Assembly: GCA_963556145.1 (NCBI GenBank)
Contig: OY744470.1
Span: forward strand, 1,054,001-1,118,000
Direction of reading: 5' to 3'
Length of the DNA stretch: 64,000 nucleotides
Source of the DNA: Hygrocybe punicea
Lineage: Eukaryota > Basidiomycota > Agaricomycetes > Agaricales > Hygrophoraceae
The notes beneath the pieces are model-generated. The model searched no databases, was not told the origin of the DNA, and saw nothing but the letters and a program-made list of their open reading frames with translations. Positions 1-46,200 of this stretch are shown here, in pieces. Both the position numbers and the translations under genes were made by a program. The number at the start of each line of letters is the position of its first letter. Within the stretch, counting starts at the first letter, position 1.

Positions 1-1052
1 TCTCATCCACAGCGACGGCTTTTGTATGTGGGTTTACGCGGATTACGCCTGGAGAGAAGCATTTTTGGAATTTTTCGGCTAACTGTGGCGGAACCGGTTT
101 TTGAGGGTTGAGGATGATGAGTGGGAGGAGACGATATGATGCTGTGGCTATAATGCACAACTTGTGTCAATCATTTCATCAAGACATGGCCGCAGACTGG
201 TGGCACATACCGACAGGACTAAATTTTGCGTGATCTTTCCCGACACCCTTGACCGCGTGTAATTCCATATCAATCTCCTGCCCAGGTCTCAGTTTCGCAA
301 TCACGATGTTCGGATTCATCGGTGCAGGTGGGTTAGTGGCAAATACGGAGCCTTGTTCGCCTTTGGGCTCCCACTTGAGATGCGACGAGAGGACTTCAGG
401 ATTGGTGTAGAGCTTAGCGGGATCTGTTTCACGTTCTTTCACCTTTTCATTCCGTGAGCAGGTGACTTGTAGACGAAAAACAATTGTATTATGATCTGTT
501 GCTTGGTCTGCGTTACCTGTGCGGGACGTGAATGGGTAAAGGTAAATAAGGGATGAAAATAATTACTCTTTTTCATCTCTATCAATGCAGGATCGATATT
601 AAGAGGCACCAATCCCAGACGGTGCGAAAACACTTCGTCGACGATAACGGAAGTATTGTTCCATATGTACGCGTCTTCGATTGCAACTGTCGGAACCTGA
701 GCAAGACAGGTGATATCGCAAAATCGTGTAACACCAGAATGACTGACCTCCGCAATGATAATCCTTCGGAACGCATTTGCTATAGATGCATCGACGCCGA
801 CCAAATCAAACTCAATCGAGCGTTGTGACAGACGTTGAATTTGGACTTGGAGTTTCTATCCTTGCCGCAACTCAACGTCAACTTGACGGGCCCAACATGA
901 AGTTGTCCCACACGCACCCGTTTGAATATGGCAAGATCCCAAGCATTGTCTTCGCCATGATAATGTCCTGGATAATCCACACTTGAGATATTCGAAACAC
1001 GGCTTGTGCCAATATTGACGTGTCGTCTCTGGTCATGCCAAGCTGCACGCAT
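1..1052 (-). CDS. RPC40: DNA-directed RNA polymerases I and III subunit RPAC1 (AC40), 3' end cut by window edge
   Basis: This is the alpha-like subunit shared by RNA polymerases I and III; it pairs with AC19 to start core assembly in the nucleus. The exons I resolve are 912-1052, 748-855, 567-696, 211-516 and 1-147, with four introns of 50-63 nt and GT..AG borders, giving 277 codons before the window edge. Diagnostic stretches in order are VSNISSVDYPGHYHG near the N-terminus, EFDLVGVDASIANAFRRI (dimerisation region), HRLGLVPLNIDP, LRPGQEIDMELHAVKG, GKDHAKFSPVATASYRLLP and CFSPGVI. Each matches the conserved RPAC1 order. The ATG at 1052 gives an N-terminus of normal length. The family is usually about 340 aa, so roughly the last 60-70 residues lie outside the window. 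The patatin-like gene starts divergently 115 bp away. Confidence 0.95.
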
Positions 1053-1167: not shown

Positions 1168-2291
1168 ATGGCCGAGCCTAGCACTGGACTCAGGTTGCTG
1201 TCATTTGGTGTGTCTTTTTCATCTACTCTAGATACCTCGTTTGACCGTTGCCACTGGCAGATGGGGGTGGTGTAAGGGGGTTGTCAGAACTGTTAATCCT
1301 GCAGCGGCTTATGCTTGGCATTCAAACGGCTGCAAATCTCCCCAACGAACCACTTCCTTGCCAAGTTTTTGATATGATCTGTGGGACTAGTTCTGGAGGG
1401 TTAGCTGTATTCCCCTCAGTATATGCCATCTATTCATTGCTCTCTTTATTTCAAAGGCTCATTGCTTTAATGCTTGGCCGCCTTGGTATGTCGGCCACTG
1501 AAGCCATCCAGGCATACCACACTCTTTCTGAAACCGTAGTTTCCCATGGGAAGAAACATTTTGGAGTTGGCAAGTACAAGGCAAGTGTCTTCGAATCCGC
1601 AGTCAAAAAGATTGTCAGGGAACGATCAGGGCATGAGGACTTGCGCCTGATTGACAATCGGTGGAACCACAACGGGTGCCCAACGTATGTAGAGTCATCT
1701 GGCCATCCGCTCCCCTTTTTACTACTATACTTCAGTTTTGTGTGCGCCCGGAATGCGGGAAACCTCGAGAATGCTTCCGCCCTCCTGTTTCGTACCTACA
1801 AAACAAATGACACCCCCAATTGCACAATATGGCAAGCTGCCCGTGCCACATCTGCCGCACCTTCGTTGTTCGAGAGTATCACCATCGATGGTGTAACATA
1901 TGTTAATGAGGGCTTCGAGTCCAACAACCCTACATTTGCACTCTTCATAGAAGCAAGAACAGCTTTTCCCAACCGGCCGATTGCATGTGTCGTTAGTATC
2001 GGGGGCGGTTTCTGGGATGTACCGAAATCCATTTGCGTCAAGGGCCGCTTTCACGGCATCCGTGATCAGCTCATGGACGATATCGATTCTGAATCTACAA
2101 ATGAAATCACGGCTGAACTCTTACGAGGGACTACAACGATGTACTTCCGGTTCAACATCCCGCTAGGTCCTTTGCCATGGGATTGGAATAAAGTAGGTCG
2201 GATCAAGAGACTCACATCTGCATACTTGAATGACGAGAAGATACATGAGGCTGCCAGGGCTCTTTCTTTCATTATTTCCGAACATACTTGA
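1168..2291 (+). CDS. Patatin-like phospholipase domain protein, 320 aa
   Basis: Exons are 1168-1207, 1261-1399, 1457-1684 and 1736-2291. Splicing joins TTTG to ATGGGG and restores the oxyanion motif DGGGVRG next to the start. The nucleophile elbow GTSSGG follows, and splicing gives SGGLIALMLGRLGMS, as expected of patatins. FVCARN..NLENASALLFRTY and the helix IWQAARATSAAP are also typical. Family members are Ser-Asp dyad acyl hydrolases acting on phospholipids or galactolipids. The catalytic Asp is normally in a D-G-G/A motif just before NNP; here that position reads VNEGFESNNP, with Asn in place of Asp. The protein may therefore be weakly active or inactive. There is no signal peptide and no NB-ARC or TPR extension, which many fungal patatin proteins carry. 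The start at 1168 is favoured because it places the glycine-rich loop correctly. Confidence 0.88.
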
Positions 2292-2594: not shown

Positions 2595-3868
2595 CTATCC
2601 AAAATTAATCGTTACCTTCGGAGGAATCCAGGATGCACCAAACTGTCTCTTCAGCACATCCTCCATGGCTAGCTCTGTAGCCACCCAACAGCTCTCCCCA
2701 GCCTTCCACCAATTCCAGATCCACCTCATGTTTGAATCCGAAACACGACACATCCCTTCCCTCTCCGATGTCCCGGCCATCCACGACTGATAATAGAACC
2801 AGCTACGCCTACAGCTGCCCCAAATGCCATCATGGGGTGAGCATGGGGCCAGCGGGTCTCGTTGCCAGACACTGATGATTCGCGAAGGCTCAAGAAGGAA
2901 GAGCGCATTGATCAGTGTCTGGTCTTTACCGACGAACATCCCACGAGACAGGTAATAATCATGGTACGCAAAGAAGTATTGGCGCCACCATCGGATCGTC
3001 CCTGGTGGTCCTCCGAAGAATGACCCTAGCGGTAGTGTAGTTGGATTGGAAAAAGCAAACAAAAAAATGCAGACTCACCTTCGCTGAAATCAGAGTCCAC
3101 AGGACCCATATCTTCTTGCCAATACCTCAGATTCGAAGACGGGATCCCCCAGAGTGGAAAAAACAATAAATCTTCTTTCGGTGTCCCACTTTTCCCACTT
3201 CCTTTCTGCCAAATTTCTTCGACCCTCCCCAAATCCGGCCAGTTGACGTATTTGTGGTCTTTCCTGAAACTCCCCGCGTCGCACCAAAATGCATATTCGT
3301 AATCCTTACCAGCGTTATTCACCGCTTCGTCCAGATAATACGCCTTGCCATTCCACACCGCATACAATTCAGGGGAATGTCGATGTTCCTCTCGATCCAG
3401 CGTGTGCATCTTGATGTACGCTTCTCGCCACCCGATGAGAGGTGGGATGTCGAATGGGGAAGAATACGACGTGTTGATGGTGATGGGGAGGTTGCCCCGC
3501 ATGGTGCGGATCATGGACTCCATCTCTGGGGTAGTGAAGAAGTAGACGTCGGTAGCGATGGGCTGCAGAAAGTGATACAGCCAAGCAGAGTACTCGCGCA
3601 TGCTGTGTTTTGACTTCGAGAGAGGGAAAAAAGCGGATACGAGGAGAATCCCTGCGGCATCGTGATTCAGTGTTGACTCTCGCTGGTTTTCGGCTTCCAA
3701 AGGAACACCAGCCGACCGTGGCGGGATGAAGGAAATATAAGAGAAGAGACCCAATATGGTGATCAGGAACAGGACTAGTAGAAAACCAATTAGCCTATTG
3801 CGTGTACCCATCATTGGATCAACTAGGATAAATAATAAATAAACAAGTTTTTTCTCGCTATCACTCAC
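2595..3868 (-). CDS. HtrL/YibB-like type II membrane protein, putative glycosyltransferase-like
   Basis: Two exons, 3079-3868 and 2595-3025, are joined across a 53-nt intron (3026-3078). The product is 406 aa from the upstream ATG, or 388-389 aa from the MMG pair 17-18 codons later. A single hydrophobic segment (about residues 25-46) near the N-terminus and no other membrane segment indicate a Golgi/ER-type signal anchor with a lumenal domain. The lumenal part contains LVSAFFPLSKSKHS, a region ending in YEYAFWCDAGSFR, and WQRDPLAP. This is the pattern I associate with the HtrL/YibB family, whose biochemical role is poorly defined but is grouped with glycosyltransferase-like proteins. The family call is from memory of motifs. 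The start codon is uncertain because the divergent DPH5 start is only 39 bp from the upstream ATG. Confidence 0.7.
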
Positions 3869-3907: not shown

Positions 3908-4993
3908 ATGCTTTACATCATCGGTCTCGGGCTTTGCGACGAGAAGGACATCACTGTACGAGGACTCGAGGTAACAGCACTCATCGTTTAATATTTCATC
4001 TATGAGAACCAAAAGACGGAACCAGGCCATCAAATCGTCCTCGCGAGTATATCTGGAGGCCTATACAAGCATTCTTATGGTTCAAAAGGATCGCCTGGTT
4101 TGGATCTGGATTATTTTGCTAGGACTCTGCTGACATGTCGTAAATAAGGAGGCATTCTACGGAAAAGAGCTGATTGTCGCTGATCGCGATATGGTCGAGA
4201 CGGACAGCGACGAGATCCTGAGAGGTGCGGACAAGGAGGATATATCCTTTCTGGTAGTTGGAGATCCATTTGGGTGAGCATAAACGTTCTTCTCGGATCA
4301 GCAGCCGTCTGACGGCACAGCGAAGGGCAACAACACATACAGATCTCATCCTACGTGCCAGGGCGCTCACCATACCAACTCACATCATTCACAATGCCTC
4401 TATCATCAATGCAGTAGGCGCCTGTGGTCTCCAGCTATACAACTTTGGCCAAACGGTTTCATTAGTTTTCTTCACCGAGACATGGAAGCCAGATAGCTTT
4501 TATGACCGAATTAAAGAGAACGCGGACCTGGGAATGCATACATTGGTTCTCCTGGACATCAAAGTGAAAGAACAAACCGACGAGAACCTCGCAAGGTAAT
4601 ATTCTGTCCTTTTCGTCAAAGACGGCCTCATACTGAACTTGCATCCTTAGAGGCAAGAAAATTTACGAACCGCCACGATACATGTCCATATCTATAGCGG
4701 TTTCTCAGTTACTCGAAGTCGAAGCTCTGCGCCAATGCGAAACGTTATCTCCAGATAACACACTCGCCATAGCTCTTTCTCGAGTCGGCGGTGGACAAGG
4801 AAACGAAGTCATTTTATGTGGGACGCTATCAGAATTAGCTTCCCACCCTCCTGAAGCTTTCGGAAGTCCACTTCAGAGCTTGGTCATTGTGGGGAGGAGG
4901 CTACACCCTCTTGAAGTAGAATATGCAGGACGGTTCGCGATCAACGGGGATACCTGGCGCGATGTGGCTATGAGAGTGTATGGATGCCTCTGA
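3908..4993 (+). CDS. DPH5: Diphthine methyl ester synthase (diphthamide biosynthesis), 290 aa
   Basis: DPH5 is the cytosolic SAM-dependent methyltransferase that methylates the modified histidine of translation elongation factor 2 during diphthamide synthesis. The five exons are 3908-3970, 4026-4097, 4149-4273, 4326-4595 and 4651-4993; all junctions keep frame. Recognisable blocks are [19 protein letters not shown] at the start, [19 protein letters not shown] joined by splicing to [65 protein letters not shown], and LHPLEVEY near the C-terminus. Length matches the family (about 280-300 aa). Nothing looks broken. The gene is divergent from the HtrL/YibB-like gene with a very small shared promoter. 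Confidence 0.96.
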
Positions 4994-5128
4994 GCAAACA
5001 CCGCTGCGCATTATATCAAGACCCGTCTCAAAAAGGTAAATGCATTCAAGTAATCATCATCATCACAGGGTTACTAAGAAACGGATGGTCAAAGAAAGTC
5101 CAAGCGTAAGCTACGGGTACCCCGACTA

Positions 5129-5450
5129 ATCCGACGATCCAGACCTGTCGCCTCGTTTCGCCATTGGGACTTCTGGCTAGAGTTCGCGATCCACCGATCC
5201 AGACCTGCCGCCGTCCCTCACCGCCATGTCCGAAATTCGTTTCGCCATCGGGAGTTCTGGATGGAGTTCGCGATCCACTGATCCGTACCTGTCGGCGTCG
5301 TCCCTCACCGCCACATCCAAAACACCTCTTTTCGCGATCGGGATTTTTGGCCGGACGAAATCCAGCGATCCAAACCTGTCATCGGGCTCCCTCGCCGCCA
5401 TACCGTCAATCACGCTAGCAGGCATTCGTTTCGCAATGGCCCCAGATTGT
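5129..5450 (-). repeat. Imperfect coding tandem repeat of about 90-99 bp, four units
   Basis: On the minus strand the unit runs AGG-x-x-x-GGATCG-x-TGGAT .. CCGATGGCGAAACGA. Three units lie inside the secreted precursor gene. The fourth (5129-5176) lies beyond its stop codon. Spacing between the AAACGA/AAAAGA dibasic codons is 33 and 30 codons within the ORF. Confidence 0.85.
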
Positions 5451-5606
5451 CTGAGAGTGGGAGAAGAGTCAATTGAAATGCATACACATGGTCCAACCAA
5501 GACGATCAACCAAGACGTACGCGATAGGGATCGCCAACGAGTTCGTTGCAAGAAGAGCAACCACAATTGTGGCGAGCGGCAAAATGGACGAGGAAAGCTG
5601 AACCAT
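5177..5606 (-). CDS. Small secreted Kex2-processed repeat precursor (candidate peptide hormone or RiPP precursor), 119 aa
   Basis: Two exons, 5521-5606 and 5177-5450, are joined across a 70-nt intron with GTACGT donor and CTCAG acceptor (5451-5520). The ATG at 5606 gives a near-ideal signal peptide: MVQLSSSILP, then a hydrophobic core LATIVVALLA, then TNSLA as the likely cleavage site (after residue 25). After it come repeats ending in the dibasic Kex2 sequence AKR at residues 35-37, 68-70 and 98-100. Each repeat carries R-[FYS]-GS-[LV]-D, then a variable P-[KE]-[IL]-P-[IM]-AKR tail. Predicted processed peptides are about 31 and 28 residues plus a C-terminal 19-mer. This architecture (signal peptide plus Kex2-cut repeats) is known from fungal pheromone, repellent and dikaritin-type precursors; no specific family is recognised here. 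A TATA box lies upstream. A longer reading frame from 5728 without the intron lacks a signal peptide and is less likely. Confidence 0.72.
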
Positions 5607-5737
5607 TGGAATGAAGAATAAAGAGGTTCTCGATCACAGATGAGACTGTTGAAGCGATTGAATGGAGAATCTCTGGCGTCAAGCCCGAATGCACGAATAG
5701 AATTGAAGTGCAGAATCCTGCAAGTCAACTTCCAGGG

Positions 5738-5745
5738 TTTATATA
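5738..5745 (-). promoter_or_regulatory. TATA box of the secreted repeat precursor gene
   Basis: The minus strand reads TATATAAA about 130 nt upstream of the chosen ATG. A perfect TATA box suggests a regulated, strongly expressed gene with a 5' leader of about 100 nt. Confidence 0.55.
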
Positions 5746-5998
5746 CGAAAGGTTGGTCGGCGTGAAACCTTTTGGGGCATGACGGTTAGTTGGTTGTACA
5801 CGCGTCGCGTCGGCGATAAATCATCAGCGCTGCAACTTAGCTTACTACAATATAATAGCTTCATTTCGTTACCATCCCAGTTTCATCATCTTAGCTCCAT
5901 AATCAAATACTCATACACTCCAGCCGTGAAGTGTTACAGTATGCACAAGAGTCTAATTATATCCACTAGCGAAGCGTTCCGCCGTTCCCATGTGGTTA

Positions 5999-7622
5999 TC
6001 AGATCACAAATGGGGTCGCTTTCGCTTTACCTCTATCATTCACCTGGTCGCGTCGGGTGATCGGTTCTTGCGTGAACACTTGGCTATGAGTATCCAGCTC
6101 ATATTCCGTGGTAACTGTCACCTTGGTGAAGAAGCAGAGTTAATGTACGAAAGAGGTTGAAAAAGAATATGTACTTGGATACTTTGCGTCTGGCGTCCGT
6201 TCTTCTCCTTGCGGAATAGGTTGGCCAGCTTGGAAAGGACATTACGTTTCGGGGTGCCCTGACTACGATGTACAAAGGATACCTCTGGACAAAGAGCTTG
6301 TTGCGGTAAAATCTGCACTCCATTACCGTTTTTGGAAAACTTGGTGCTGCGTCTTTGATTGAGCGGTGCGTCTGCTTTGGATGCATGTGCGTGTTCCGAG
6401 ACTCCGATATTCTGCGCGGTGTTGTGGTGATACCCCGTCACCCAGAAAATGGCAAGAGCATTGAAAATGACCTGACAAGAACGAGCCTTGGGATTGGTAA
6501 AATAAAATGAGGGGAAAACATACATCACTGCCACAACTTCCAAGGCATACCCAGCCCAACTCCTTGCCGCCCAAGACTGTCAGAACGAGAATATTAATCT
6601 GACAATGGCAAAGTAAGTGCATTAGACCTATGACAAGAACAACAAGACCCACAATCGATGTCGTGAGCGCCATAGCGGCTGCACTTGAGACATAGAGATC
6701 TGAGTTCTTATCAGCATAGAGACAGTAAGTACCACGCTCACCACAACGTGCGAATGGCCACTCTCCTGATCACCGGACTCAGAACGCGCTTGGAATTGAA
6801 CAAGGGCCAGAGGAAGAGTATGGTAAGTGTGACGTTGATGAAGCTATTAAGTCGGGCATGAGAGATGCAGTTTGATAAGCGATGTTATCTTTACCTGTCG
6901 TAGGCGAGAACGGGGATGGAAGCAATAGCCTTAAGTCCAATAACACATACCCCATCATCTCGAAAATAGTGTAACTTTCCTGGAGTACATTGGTTGATCA
7001 GCGCAGTAAGCCAAGGTATTGAGAACTTACCAACAAGCATGCAGAGGCCTATAACTACAGAATACAACGACAGCATCACAAAGCAGCCAATATAGACGGG
7101 GGACCTGAAACGCCTCATTCCCGCGGCAGGGGACCAAACGACATGCACCTTTTCGACTGAAGAAATAACCGTGAGATTATAGAGGACCTGATAGCCAAAA
7201 ACTCACTCAAGTACGCATAAATGAATACCTTGGAAGTCGCGTAGAACGCGATGCAGACATATATTGCGGTGGAACAAACAGCGGTATGGAATTCCAATCC
7301 AATGCCAAATATAAGGATGCTACCTGGTCTTTACGTTAGTAAGGAAAATGCACATGGAGGAGACGAACTTGTGAAGAGGAACATCCACGAGTCCGCGAAG
7401 ATGAGGATGATACAAAGTCGAGGCCACGGGATGCTATGGAGTGCGCTGAACGACTCTGCGCACAGCCTACGGGATAGGCAATGTGCAAGGACCGAGAGAC
7501 CTGTATATCAATGAGCGGGACGCGAATGAAACGGCGATAACAAGCCACTAACCAAGAAAATTAATCACAGCGCTCAGCAATTGCGTACCAGTAGAGGGAA
7601 ATATTGATCCCTTCGCTAACAT
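5999..7622 (-). CDS. Conserved fungal seven-transmembrane protein of unknown function, 385 aa
   Basis: Ten exons keep frame throughout: 7553-7622, 7369-7500, 7207-7323, 7031-7156, 6895-6979, 6742-6843, 6653-6683, 6524-6598, 6175-6471 and 5999-6121. The product has about seven hydrophobic segments. Family-typical blocks are EKVHVVWSP, RFRSPVYIGCF, YFRDDGVCVIGLKAIASIP, NVTLTILFLWPLF, RRVAIRTLW, NILVLTVLGGKELGWVCL and VIFNALAIFWVT. These are followed by a hydrophilic, probably cytosolic tail that ends with VTVTTEYELD. I recognise this as a widespread, receptor-like Agaricomycete membrane family with no assigned function. The start at 7622 follows from splice phase and gives a short extracellular N-terminus. 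It lies directly upstream of the secreted precursor gene on the same strand. Confidence 0.85.
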
Positions 7623-12849: not shown

Positions 12850-13338
12850 CTCATGCAGCTAATTCCTGGAGTAATTCACATCAGGAGCTTTTGGACTGCA
12901 GTTCTTTTTGTGATGAGCTCTGAGAATGTTGTATGTACACTTGGATGTGGCCTCAGAAAACTAGAATGTATAATATTATTAATAATATTACATCATGTGA
13001 GTACAGGAACTTATACCATATCCTGCTTCTGATGCCCGGTATTGGAAGCTGCTTTGTCCCCAGCACTTCTGGAAGCTTATATATTGAAGGTCAGTTACTC
13101 AACAGCAAAAAAAATCTTGAGTTGACACACCCCTACGCTTGCGTTTTTTCCCTGTGATAGCCTTCCACATATCTTGAAGATTTGCAACAGCAATCTGTTC
13201 ATCTTCATCAGGTGAATGTTCATCAAACTTTGACAAAGTTGAATATGAGAATCCACAAAGTCCATAATGTAGAAAAGAAAGAAAGACCACGAGGAACTCC
13301 AGGTGTGGGTTGAGGTGGGTCATTGGAGTCATTGAAAG
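12850..13338. other. Transposon debris without recognisable domain
   Basis: There are only short frames. One minus-strand stretch ends in KAITGKKRKRRGVS, a basic tail like a nuclear localisation signal. I cannot assign it. Confidence 0.3.
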
Positions 13339-42345: not shown

Positions 42346-43249
42346 ATTTTATCCTTCTTTTTCTTTGAAGCTTTGGAGCTCTCCCGAAGGGGTTGAAAGC
42401 GTCAAAGTTGGAGTGTCTTTGTTGTGAGATGTTTGCGAACGTCGCTTGGGAGATGCCAGCTGCTCAGAGCGCTGATCACCACGGCATTGAATCTCTTCCC
42501 TCGAGCACGAGTACGAGTACTTACGACTTCGATCAAGCACTGCAATATTGATGATACCAGTGACTAGTCACTGACGATCTGATTCCTGACGCCCCTGCAG
42601 ATCCCGACGCCACTCATTGATAGTAGACTTTTGGGCCACATGCTGCGAGGATCGATGTACATGGGCTGAATTTCAGCGGGGAATAATAGGTGTGTCATGA
42701 CTATTATTCTAAACCGTTTACTTGTAGATGCAAGCTTTTCTGGTGGGATCTTCGAGACGGCGACGACGACGCATGCATAGCCCCAGGTTGTGATGTGGCT
42801 ATAGCGAATAACCAGAAATTGGTAGGTGTTGTTTTTTGAACTCGGCTAAGCTTTCTCACCATGCGTTATTACAACAGGACTGATGAATCGATGAATGATA
42901 CAGCATTGGATATGATATGTGATATGTGATATGTGATATACGTGCACGTATGCAGACGGACGGATGCTTTTACGCGAGCTCCTGAATCCAAATGGGTCTC
43001 TTGAGCGCTGGGATATTGGATGGCCGTGATAATGTGTTGCGAAGTGCGGGATGGTCGGGGATGGGAGAGAGCACACGTTTCTGGGATTATCGGCGGTGAT
43101 CGGTTCTGAGAAACCGGAATAGGAAACAGGGCAACCGCATATAGTAACCGGTGTTGATGCGTATTTGTATGTGTGCCTAAGTTTTGATGCCGGACTAGAT
43201 CGTTTTGTGCTCTTTTCTTTCTGCACTCGTTTCGCAGACAGCCACAACG
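42346..43249. other. Intergenic region, promoter of the OPT transporter
   Basis: It has a repeated GATATGTGATATGTGATAT (42908-42940) and otherwise unremarkable sequence. No gene is supported. Confidence 0.4.
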
Positions 43250-46200
43250 ATGTCCCATCCATTCGCTGCTCGATTGCCGACACCGACATCGACGCCGACG
43301 ACTGTGCCCCCGTTTCCCCACGATGCCCAGTATTCCTATTCCCAAGACGACGACCACAACGACGACGACAGCGACGACGAAGACGTCTTTGCATTTCTCC
43401 CGCCCAGCACCGCAGACCAGCAAAACACCGACGTTCTCTTCCAACAACAACAGCAACAGCAGCAGCAACAGCAACGCCAACTCCAACAACTACACCAACA
43501 ACTCCACCTTCCTGATCTCACCCCCGAACACGGACCCCCGCTCCCGCTCGACCCGCCCCATCTTTTCTCCTCCAAACTCGACTCCCCAGCTTCTTCTTCC
43601 TATCCAGACCCTCACTCGTTCGCCCACAATGTCCCCTCCACTTCCTTCCCATCTCGCCCCGTCCCACAAGCCTCTACCACCGCCGCTACTTCAACAGCAG
43701 GCGGGTCCCCATCCTCAACCACTTTCCGCGACGCCAATCTCCCCCTCCCCCAGTCTCTCAACGAAAAAGACTTGGAAAACCAGTCTCACCTGAGACCCTC
43801 CTCAAACAACGAGAGCTTGACCTCTCCCAGCATGTTGGAGGAAGACAGTTGCGTCGGTTCAATAAAGTCCGTCACTCCCTCTCGCTCCACCCTTTTTCTC
43901 ACTCATTCCTTTTTCTCAGAATGGAGTTCGACTTTGACGGCGTCGAAGACGAAGACAGTCCTTTCCCTGAAGTACGAGCTTCCGTCTCAAACATCGACGA
44001 TCCCGACATGCCAACCCTCACACTACGTATGTGGTTGGTTGGTCTTATACTTTGTATGGTCAGCAGGTACATACACACACACTCTTCTCCACCCCCGTCC
44101 TAACCCGTCTCACAGCGCCGTCAACGTCTTTTTCAACTTCCGCGCTCCCGCTCCATACGTGGTCCCACTCGCTCTACTCCTCATCGCCTACCCCTTCGGA
44201 AAACTCCTCGCCTTTTCCCTCCCAATCACAACCTACAGACTACCTCGTTTCCTCGGTTCAACAGAGTTCTCTCTCAACCCGGGTCCTTGGAACATCAAAG
44301 AACACGCCCTCGTTTTCATAATGGCAAACGTCACGGTCCAAGCTCCGTACGCGATGAACGCCATCGTCGTCATCGAGGAATTCTACGGCATAAACCTCGA
44401 CTATTGGTTCAATCTCGTATTCGTCCTTGGCACTCAGCTCACTGGGTTTGGCATCGCCGGTCTCTGTCGCCGCTTCCTTGTTTGGCCCGCCAGCTTGGTC
44501 TGGCCGCAGAATCTCGTCGTGTGCACTCTGCTCAACACCCTCCATGCAGAGGAAGACGAGGGCTCGGGTGGAATCAGCAGGTTCAAGTATTTTATTATCG
44601 TCCTCGTCGCTAGCTTCGTTTGGTGGATCTTCCCTGGCAAGTCTTTTCTTGTCGTTCCTTGCAAATACCCTTGCTCACAAACCGTCTTTCTCTCTCTCTA
44701 GGATTCATCTTCCAGGCCCTGTCCATCTTTTCCGTGGTTTGCTGGATAGTCCCACGTAATGTCCCCGTCAACCAGCTCTTTGGCGTACAGACTGGTTTGG
44801 GGATGAGCTTCATCACTTTTGACTGGACGCAGATCTCTTGGATTAATAGCCCCCTCATGGTCCCTTGGTGGGCAGAGATTCACGCTTTTACTGGCTTTGT
44901 CCTCTTTTATTGGATCCTCACCCCGATATTGTATTATACAAACGTACGTTTCCTTCTCCCCCCTTTCCCCAACTCTCTTCTCACTCACTCACTCCCTCCC
45001 TCCCTCTTAGACATGGCAATTATCCCACTTCCCCATCTCCGCCAACGTTCCCTACGACCGCTTCGGCCAACCCTACAACATCAAACGCGTCCTCAAACCC
45101 GACGACACCTTCAACCTAACAGCATACGAAGAATACTCGCCATTATACCTCCCAGCGACGTACGCCGTGACGTACCTGCTGGCGTTTTCTCTGACGACGT
45201 GCATCATTGTGCATACGGCGTTGTATCATGGACGGAGTTTGATTAATGGGGTGAAGAGGATCAAGGTGGAGCCTGATGATATTCATGCAAAGTTGATGAG
45301 GAATTATCCCGAGGTCCCGGATTGGTGGTATGCGGTTGTGTTTGTGATGTTTTTTGGATGTATGATTGTGGCTATGGAGGTGGGTTGGGTTGGGATTTTT
45401 TTTTGGGGTTGGGGCCAAGTGCTTTTCTTTTTTTTTTGCTGATGCATTTTGTGAAAGGTTTGGCATACGTCGGTCCCTGTATGGGCGTTGTTGTTGGCGG
45501 TCTTGCTCCCCATCATATATGTCATACCCGCGGGCTTCATCTATGCCATGACTGGCCAAGCGGTGCGTGTTTTTAGTTGTTAGTTTTTTCACTGTTTCTC
45601 ATTCGTTTACACCCCCCCCCACCCCCCACCCCCCTTTTTTTTATTCTTCTTGCCAGGTCCAAATCAACCTTCTTGCGCAGATAATTCCAGGGACGGTTCT
45701 GCCTGGTAACCCTCTTGCGAATATGGTGGGTTTTTCCGTTTCTTCTCTCTCTCTCTCACTGTCTCTCGCTCCTGTTTTCGCTTGACGCTTTGTCTGATGG
45801 TTTTTTTTGTTGTTGTTGGTGTGGAATTGTGGATGTGATACAGGTGTTCAAGGCGTATTCTGTGCAGACGTTGTTAGAGGCGATGTCGTTTGTGCAAGAT
45901 TTGAAATTGGGGCATTACGTCAAGATCCCACCGCGTGCTACGTTTCTCGGTACGTTTTTTTTATTTTTTATTTTTTTATTTATTTATTTTTTTGTCACCC
46001 CTCACCGATGTTGGTTGATCATAAAACTCGACTAACGATGTTTTTTTGTTGTTGTAGTGCAAGCCGTGGCGACGACGTTGGCGGCGTTCGTCCAGGTTGG
46101 GGTGAAGCAGTGGCTGTTTGCTAATGTCAAGGATATATGCCACCCGCACCAGGCGAGTTTCTTGACGTGTCCCCATAATCAGGTTTATTTCACCGCTTCT

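Follow-up and report, generated by a model that had tools for sequence, protein, structure and literature searches.

Kex2-processed repeat proteins (KEPs) are a published class of fungal precursors, of which one survey describes 7878 in 1345 of 1461 strains (PMC7329392). By that survey's account 1680 of them come from Basidiomycota, 103 of these lying near DUF3328 genes, and 2560 of the 7878 are without any homologue. In Agaricomycetes, mass spectrometry is described as having revealed KEP peptides from C. cinerea, L. edodes, P. ostreatus and P. eryngii (PMC9769878), and the same work, which portrays KEP peptides as common in fungi and their roles as largely unknown, relates that six kep gene knockouts in C. 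cinerea gave no apparent phenotype. Here we describe, in a window of 64,000 nucleotides (i.e., the whole stretch of DNA that was analysed), a locus that is probably a KEP-like precursor gene yielding linear peptides.

Anatomy of the locus

On the minus strand, where all features of the candidate lie, a two-exon open reading frame gives a protein of 119 amino acids once a 70-nt GT-AG intron is removed, and translation of the window thus bears out the intron, the 86-nt first exon and the product proposed in an earlier sequence-only reading. Exon 1 (5521..5606) carries the start codon and an N-terminus, MVQLSSSILPLATIVVALLATNSLAIPI, which is signal-peptide-like by a crude hydrophobicity/AXA rule, in agreement with the signal peptide claimed before, and A25 is the candidate residue after which it would be cleaved. 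The intron (5451..5520; GTACGT...TTGAC...CTCTCAG) has a GC content of 0.46, lower than that of the exons (0.52 and 0.58), and exon 2 (5177..5450) holds three AKR sites, the units U1 to U3 and the terminal TAG at 5179-5177. The TATA box that had been reported is present as the TATA-like TATATAAA at 5738..5745 (i.e., 5745-5738 in the direction of the gene), its first base 139 nt ahead of the start codon and with no other ATG in the interval.

By translation and unit alignment, exon 2 begins with the leader QSGAIA-KR (5426..5449), which ends in the first predicted Kex2 site, and continues with U1, MPASVIDGMAAREPDDRFGSLDFVRPKIPIA-KR (5327..5425), U2, GVLDVAVRDDADRYGSVDRELHPELPMA-KR (5237..5326), and the C-terminal U3, ISDMAVRDGGRSGSVDREL-stop (5177..5236). 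The peptides predicted from these units are of 31, 28 and 19 residues, as expected from the earlier estimate of two to three peptides of 19-31 residues. The core R-[FYS]-G-S-[LV]-D, already recognized then, is carried by all three units, inside a longer common peptide core, [VI]-x-D-[MV]-A-x-R...R-x-G-S-[LV]-D, to which U1 adds one residue. As to the claim that three AKR sites end the repeats, the three sites are there, at 5431-5426, 5332-5327 and 5242-5237, whilst KR on both sides is found for U1 and U2 only, U3 being C-terminal.

With just three KR sites in a product known from its sequence alone, one could think of a secreted repeat protein acting whole, for instance in the cell wall, with its KR sites idle or one of them serving a propeptide cut; ordinary secreted proteins are also described as matured by Kex2 (PMC9769878). 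Against this, KR falls at the equivalent place in the leader and in each KR-bearing unit (IAKR, IAKR, MAKR), and the 119-aa protein has neither a cysteine nor, in a Pfam search, any domain, so that we consider a protein acting whole distinctly improbable.

The units also repeat at the DNA level, as a family (D1) with spacings of 60, 84 and 87, each divisible by three, and Tandem Repeats Finder returned no entry for positions 4000-7000 of the window. Peptide similarity between U1 and U2, and between U2 and U3, was equalled in none of 5000 shuffles each; that between U1 and U3 is weak (equalled in 130 of 5000). The array does not end with the product. Its in-frame TAG falls within the repeats, and beyond it the frame runs on at 5129..5176 with PEVPMAKRGDRSGSSD, comprising an AKR and a shortened unit, up to a second TAG at 5128-5126. 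The gene lies within the extent first given, 5129..5745, the left end of which therefore includes sequence past the stop.

This in-frame TAG, with further repeat beyond it, makes a decaying KEP gene a real rival, in which a formerly longer array would now be truncated in U3, with expression or selection perhaps lost. It would be in keeping with such decay that the continuation past the stop still holds an AKR, and so would two results given below, the even spread of substitutions over codon positions and the search for homologues and paralogues. The start, the signal-like N-terminus, the splice sites and the three upstream KR sites, however, are all intact, and two fully flanked units are retained in the product. 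Moreover, at least one known precursor, S. cerevisiae MFalpha1, normally ends in a unit that lacks KR, its fourth motif being described as C-terminal (PMC6339444). A functional precursor is thus the preferred interpretation, decay being unlikely though of some weight.

U3 also contains, at 5221-5177, an in-frame 45-nt stretch, GTGAGG...CTCTAG, the removal of which by splicing would delete the TAG; it is short, and by eye its branch site is indistinct. Supposing that this stretch, with GTGAGG at 5221 and TAG at 5177, served as an alternative intron, skipping the stop would give two peptide sets from a lineage-restricted family with the RxGS[LV]D core, and splicing would decide which of the cores get released. 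We hold this to be very improbable indeed.

Chance, coding potential and relatives

How easily such an architecture arises was assessed by a scan for ATG starts with zero or one intron, a product of 70-230 aa, a signal-like N-terminus and at least three KR. The signal-peptide rule of the scan is crude, was devised after the 119-aa protein had been seen, and is distinct from SignalP; under it the window returned one hit, the candidate gene, against none in 20 control loci from the same genome (10 kb each, 200 kb in total; L008-L027) and none when the window was dinucleotide-shuffled 150 times. When at least two KR were accepted, the counts were three starts in the window, none in the 20 control loci and four in the 150 shuffles. 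Besides the candidate, the three comprise two overlapping minus-strand ATG starts near 13330, with products of 77 and 74 aa, which have a signal-like N-terminus and two KR without a repeat, and are likely due to chance. With the repeat exon fixed and the upstream 650 nt shuffled, a signal peptide appeared in frame in 13 of 3000 trials. The architecture is hard to obtain randomly and the anatomy is real, its origin by chance being unlikely.

The codon-usage reference comprised 994 codons in five ORF fragments, one or more of them extending into an intron; on this scale the candidate frame reached 0.113, compared to 0.060 and 0.014 in the shifted frames and to a maximum of 0.073 over the two shifted and three antisense frames; 2 of 2000 mononucleotide shuffles matched it. 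For exon 2 by itself the frames are not separated, another frame scoring 0.107 versus 0.103, and the positive control is biased, as the reference was scored against a table containing itself. Differences between the units are distributed 14/12/14 over the codon positions, with pN of 0.20 and pS of 0.24 (64 codons, stop codons dropped), and such even figures give no indication that purifying selection has acted between the units.

These last figures, which look neutral, would also suit a non-coding minisatellite whose repeats are open, and preceded by a signal peptide, by chance, or a locus whose product is instead the 131-aa one of a plus-strand ORF (5226-5618). Multiple frames are open across the repeats, and the 13 shuffles of upstream sequence mentioned above show how often the signal peptide can come about fortuitously. 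On the other hand, neither the shuffles nor the control loci ever produced the full architecture, and all D1 spacings keep the reading frame. The plus-strand ORF matches no Pfam family, has a codon score of 0.061, lower than that of the candidate, and starts with MSEIRFAIGSS, where no signal-like stretch is discernible by eye. We accordingly give little credence to either the minisatellite or the plus-strand product, and retain the minus-strand precursor.

Searched against the database, the 119-aa protein had 39 candidates, none at E <= 1; in the genome, a protein search for paralogues found only the two exons of the candidate gene itself at E <= 10 (best candidates scored), and a DNA search with 5129-5745 matched itself alone. 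The missing homologues are weak evidence, since the database seems to lack a close relative of the host fungus, to judge from two other genes of the window. One is the diphthine methyl ester synthase gene DPH5 (about 4040-4993, plus strand), which converges on the candidate gene in a tail-to-tail arrangement and has a best database identity of 82% among the best 120 of 6371 matches. The other is an ORF for an uncharacterised fungal protein (3029-3868, minus strand), whose best identity is 66% over 70% of the query among the best 120 of 186, two of these being named as a glycosyltransferase family in a source.

A spliced fragment of DPH5 is up to 82% identical to proteins named diphthine synthase, and PF00590 is carried by 120 of 120 (the best 120 of 6371). 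Those of its matches that bear names, at 73-82% identity in the same best 120 of 6371, are from what we take to be Agaricomycetes. A DPH5 tree gave no supported placement of the host; it was made of the window sequence and 46 of the best 120 of 6371, selected by name for spread of orders. The host is most likely an Agaricomycete lacking a close relative in the database.

Elsewhere in the window are a patatin-like phospholipase ORF (1248-2291, plus strand; PF01734), a partial RNA polymerase Rpb3/Rpb11 dimerisation domain (442-855, minus strand; PF01193) and an OPT oligopeptide transporter domain (43205-44698, plus strand; PF03169). Multiple open stretches with hydrophobic segments occupy 6118-7202 on the minus strand and may be exonic parts of a gene for a multi-pass membrane protein, none of the three that were searched having a Pfam match.

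Predicted processing

If the preferred interpretation is correct, the spliced mRNA would be translated into a preproprotein of 119 aa entering the ER via its signal peptide, and in the Golgi a Kex2-type protease would cleave it after the three KR sites. Removal of KR by a carboxypeptidase would then leave three linear peptides, short and probably unstructured, with lengths near 31, 28 and 19 aa, together with a 10-aa leader fragment. The first of these would have MP at its N-terminus, possibly a site for dipeptide removal of the STE13 type. Once released, the peptides would most likely be extracellular, taking part in interaction with other organisms or serving as a signal. The reading frame, the splice signals and the repeats are seen directly, as are the kexin-type and DPPIV-type domains in the genome; that the gene is transcribed and spliced, and its product secreted, cut and in any way active, we infer.

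The genome seems equipped for these steps. Kexin-type P_proprotein matches lie in two places about 7 kb apart (C2:6478715-6486062; L006, L007), each with one internal stop, as an intron would produce in exon-by-exon matching, and a DPPIV_N gene lies in one; with a kexin P domain and DPPIV_N present, the usual KEP processing is possible in this host. The two P-domain matches score nearly alike, and the Kex2-type gene at C2:6478715-6486062 is perhaps tandemly duplicated.

What the peptides would be is narrowed down by the rest of the genome and by their composition. UstYa (PF11807) has three matches, on contigs C34 and C40, none of them on the candidate's contig, C36 (matched exon by exon, best candidates scored), and the 20 matches to STE3 are confined to C8, C2 and C40, again with none on C36. 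This gives little ground for a cyclised dikaritin or for an STE3 mating-locus gene, and favours linear peptides. As to a pheromone, the predicted peptides lack Trp and are net acidic; alpha-type pheromones pair with STE2. The Rep1 peptides of Ustilago are hydrophobic; the three predicted here, with GRAVY values of -0.05, -0.42 and -0.56 and net charges of -1, -4 and -1, are not. Of the sequence-only reading, the Kex2-cut secreted precursor is what the anatomy, the chance controls and the presence of kexin and DPPIV_N in the genome best support, whilst the dikaritin RiPP, which had been included in it, is left unsupported, with no UstYa match on C36.

Comparison with known precursors

Whether the candidate is called a KEP depends on the definition. 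It fits a broad one, which asks for several related cores with Kex2 sites (KR/RR) on either side in a secreted precursor, by its signal-like N-terminus (by the crude rule), two KR-flanked units and one that is C-terminal. Umemura 2020 is described as demanding at least three tandem repeats of at least 8 aa between Kex2 sites (PMC7329392), for which three units of 19-31 aa, two of them between KR sites, are a borderline case. Le Marquer 2019 demands at least three similar fragments with the C-terminal one initially omitted (PMC6339444); by this rule, as understood from its description, the candidate falls short, two similar fragments preceding the C-terminal one. KEP-like is therefore the label used here.

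With dikaritin precursors of the ustiloxin type the candidate has in common a signal peptide and Kex2-flanked repeats, and it differs from them in lying on a contig without a UstYa/DUF3328 match. The Ustilago repellent Rep1 and the ascomycete alpha-factor are Kex2-cut repeat precursors, as the candidate would be, whereas the candidate's predicted peptides have a net negative charge, range from hydrophilic to neutral, and are free of tryptophan.

The candidate alone settles no open question. It offers an example of how a short first exon may conceal a KEP-type gene, and, as a precursor with a different core, one more candidate that can be tested for a part in signalling by fungi or in their biotic interactions.

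Its closest likeness is to the KEPs themselves, as far as these are described (PMC6339444, PMC7329392, PMC9769878): a short protein with a signal-like N-terminus and with KR between its repeated cores, for which, as for 2560 of the 7878, no homologue was found. It departs from them in having two doubly flanked units where both surveys, by their descriptions, require three, in its imperfect repeats, and in the TAG within the array. With the KEPs of C. cinerea, Lentinula and Pleurotus it shares both host class and architecture; the cores of the latter two, and several of those quoted for C. cinerea, end in W (AADW, APSW), whilst those of the candidate, compared by description, lack tryptophan and are built around RxGS[LV]D (PMC9769878). 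By its architecture, then, the locus is a credible but unproven further KEP-like precursor, belonging to a category that is itself already known and ordinary.
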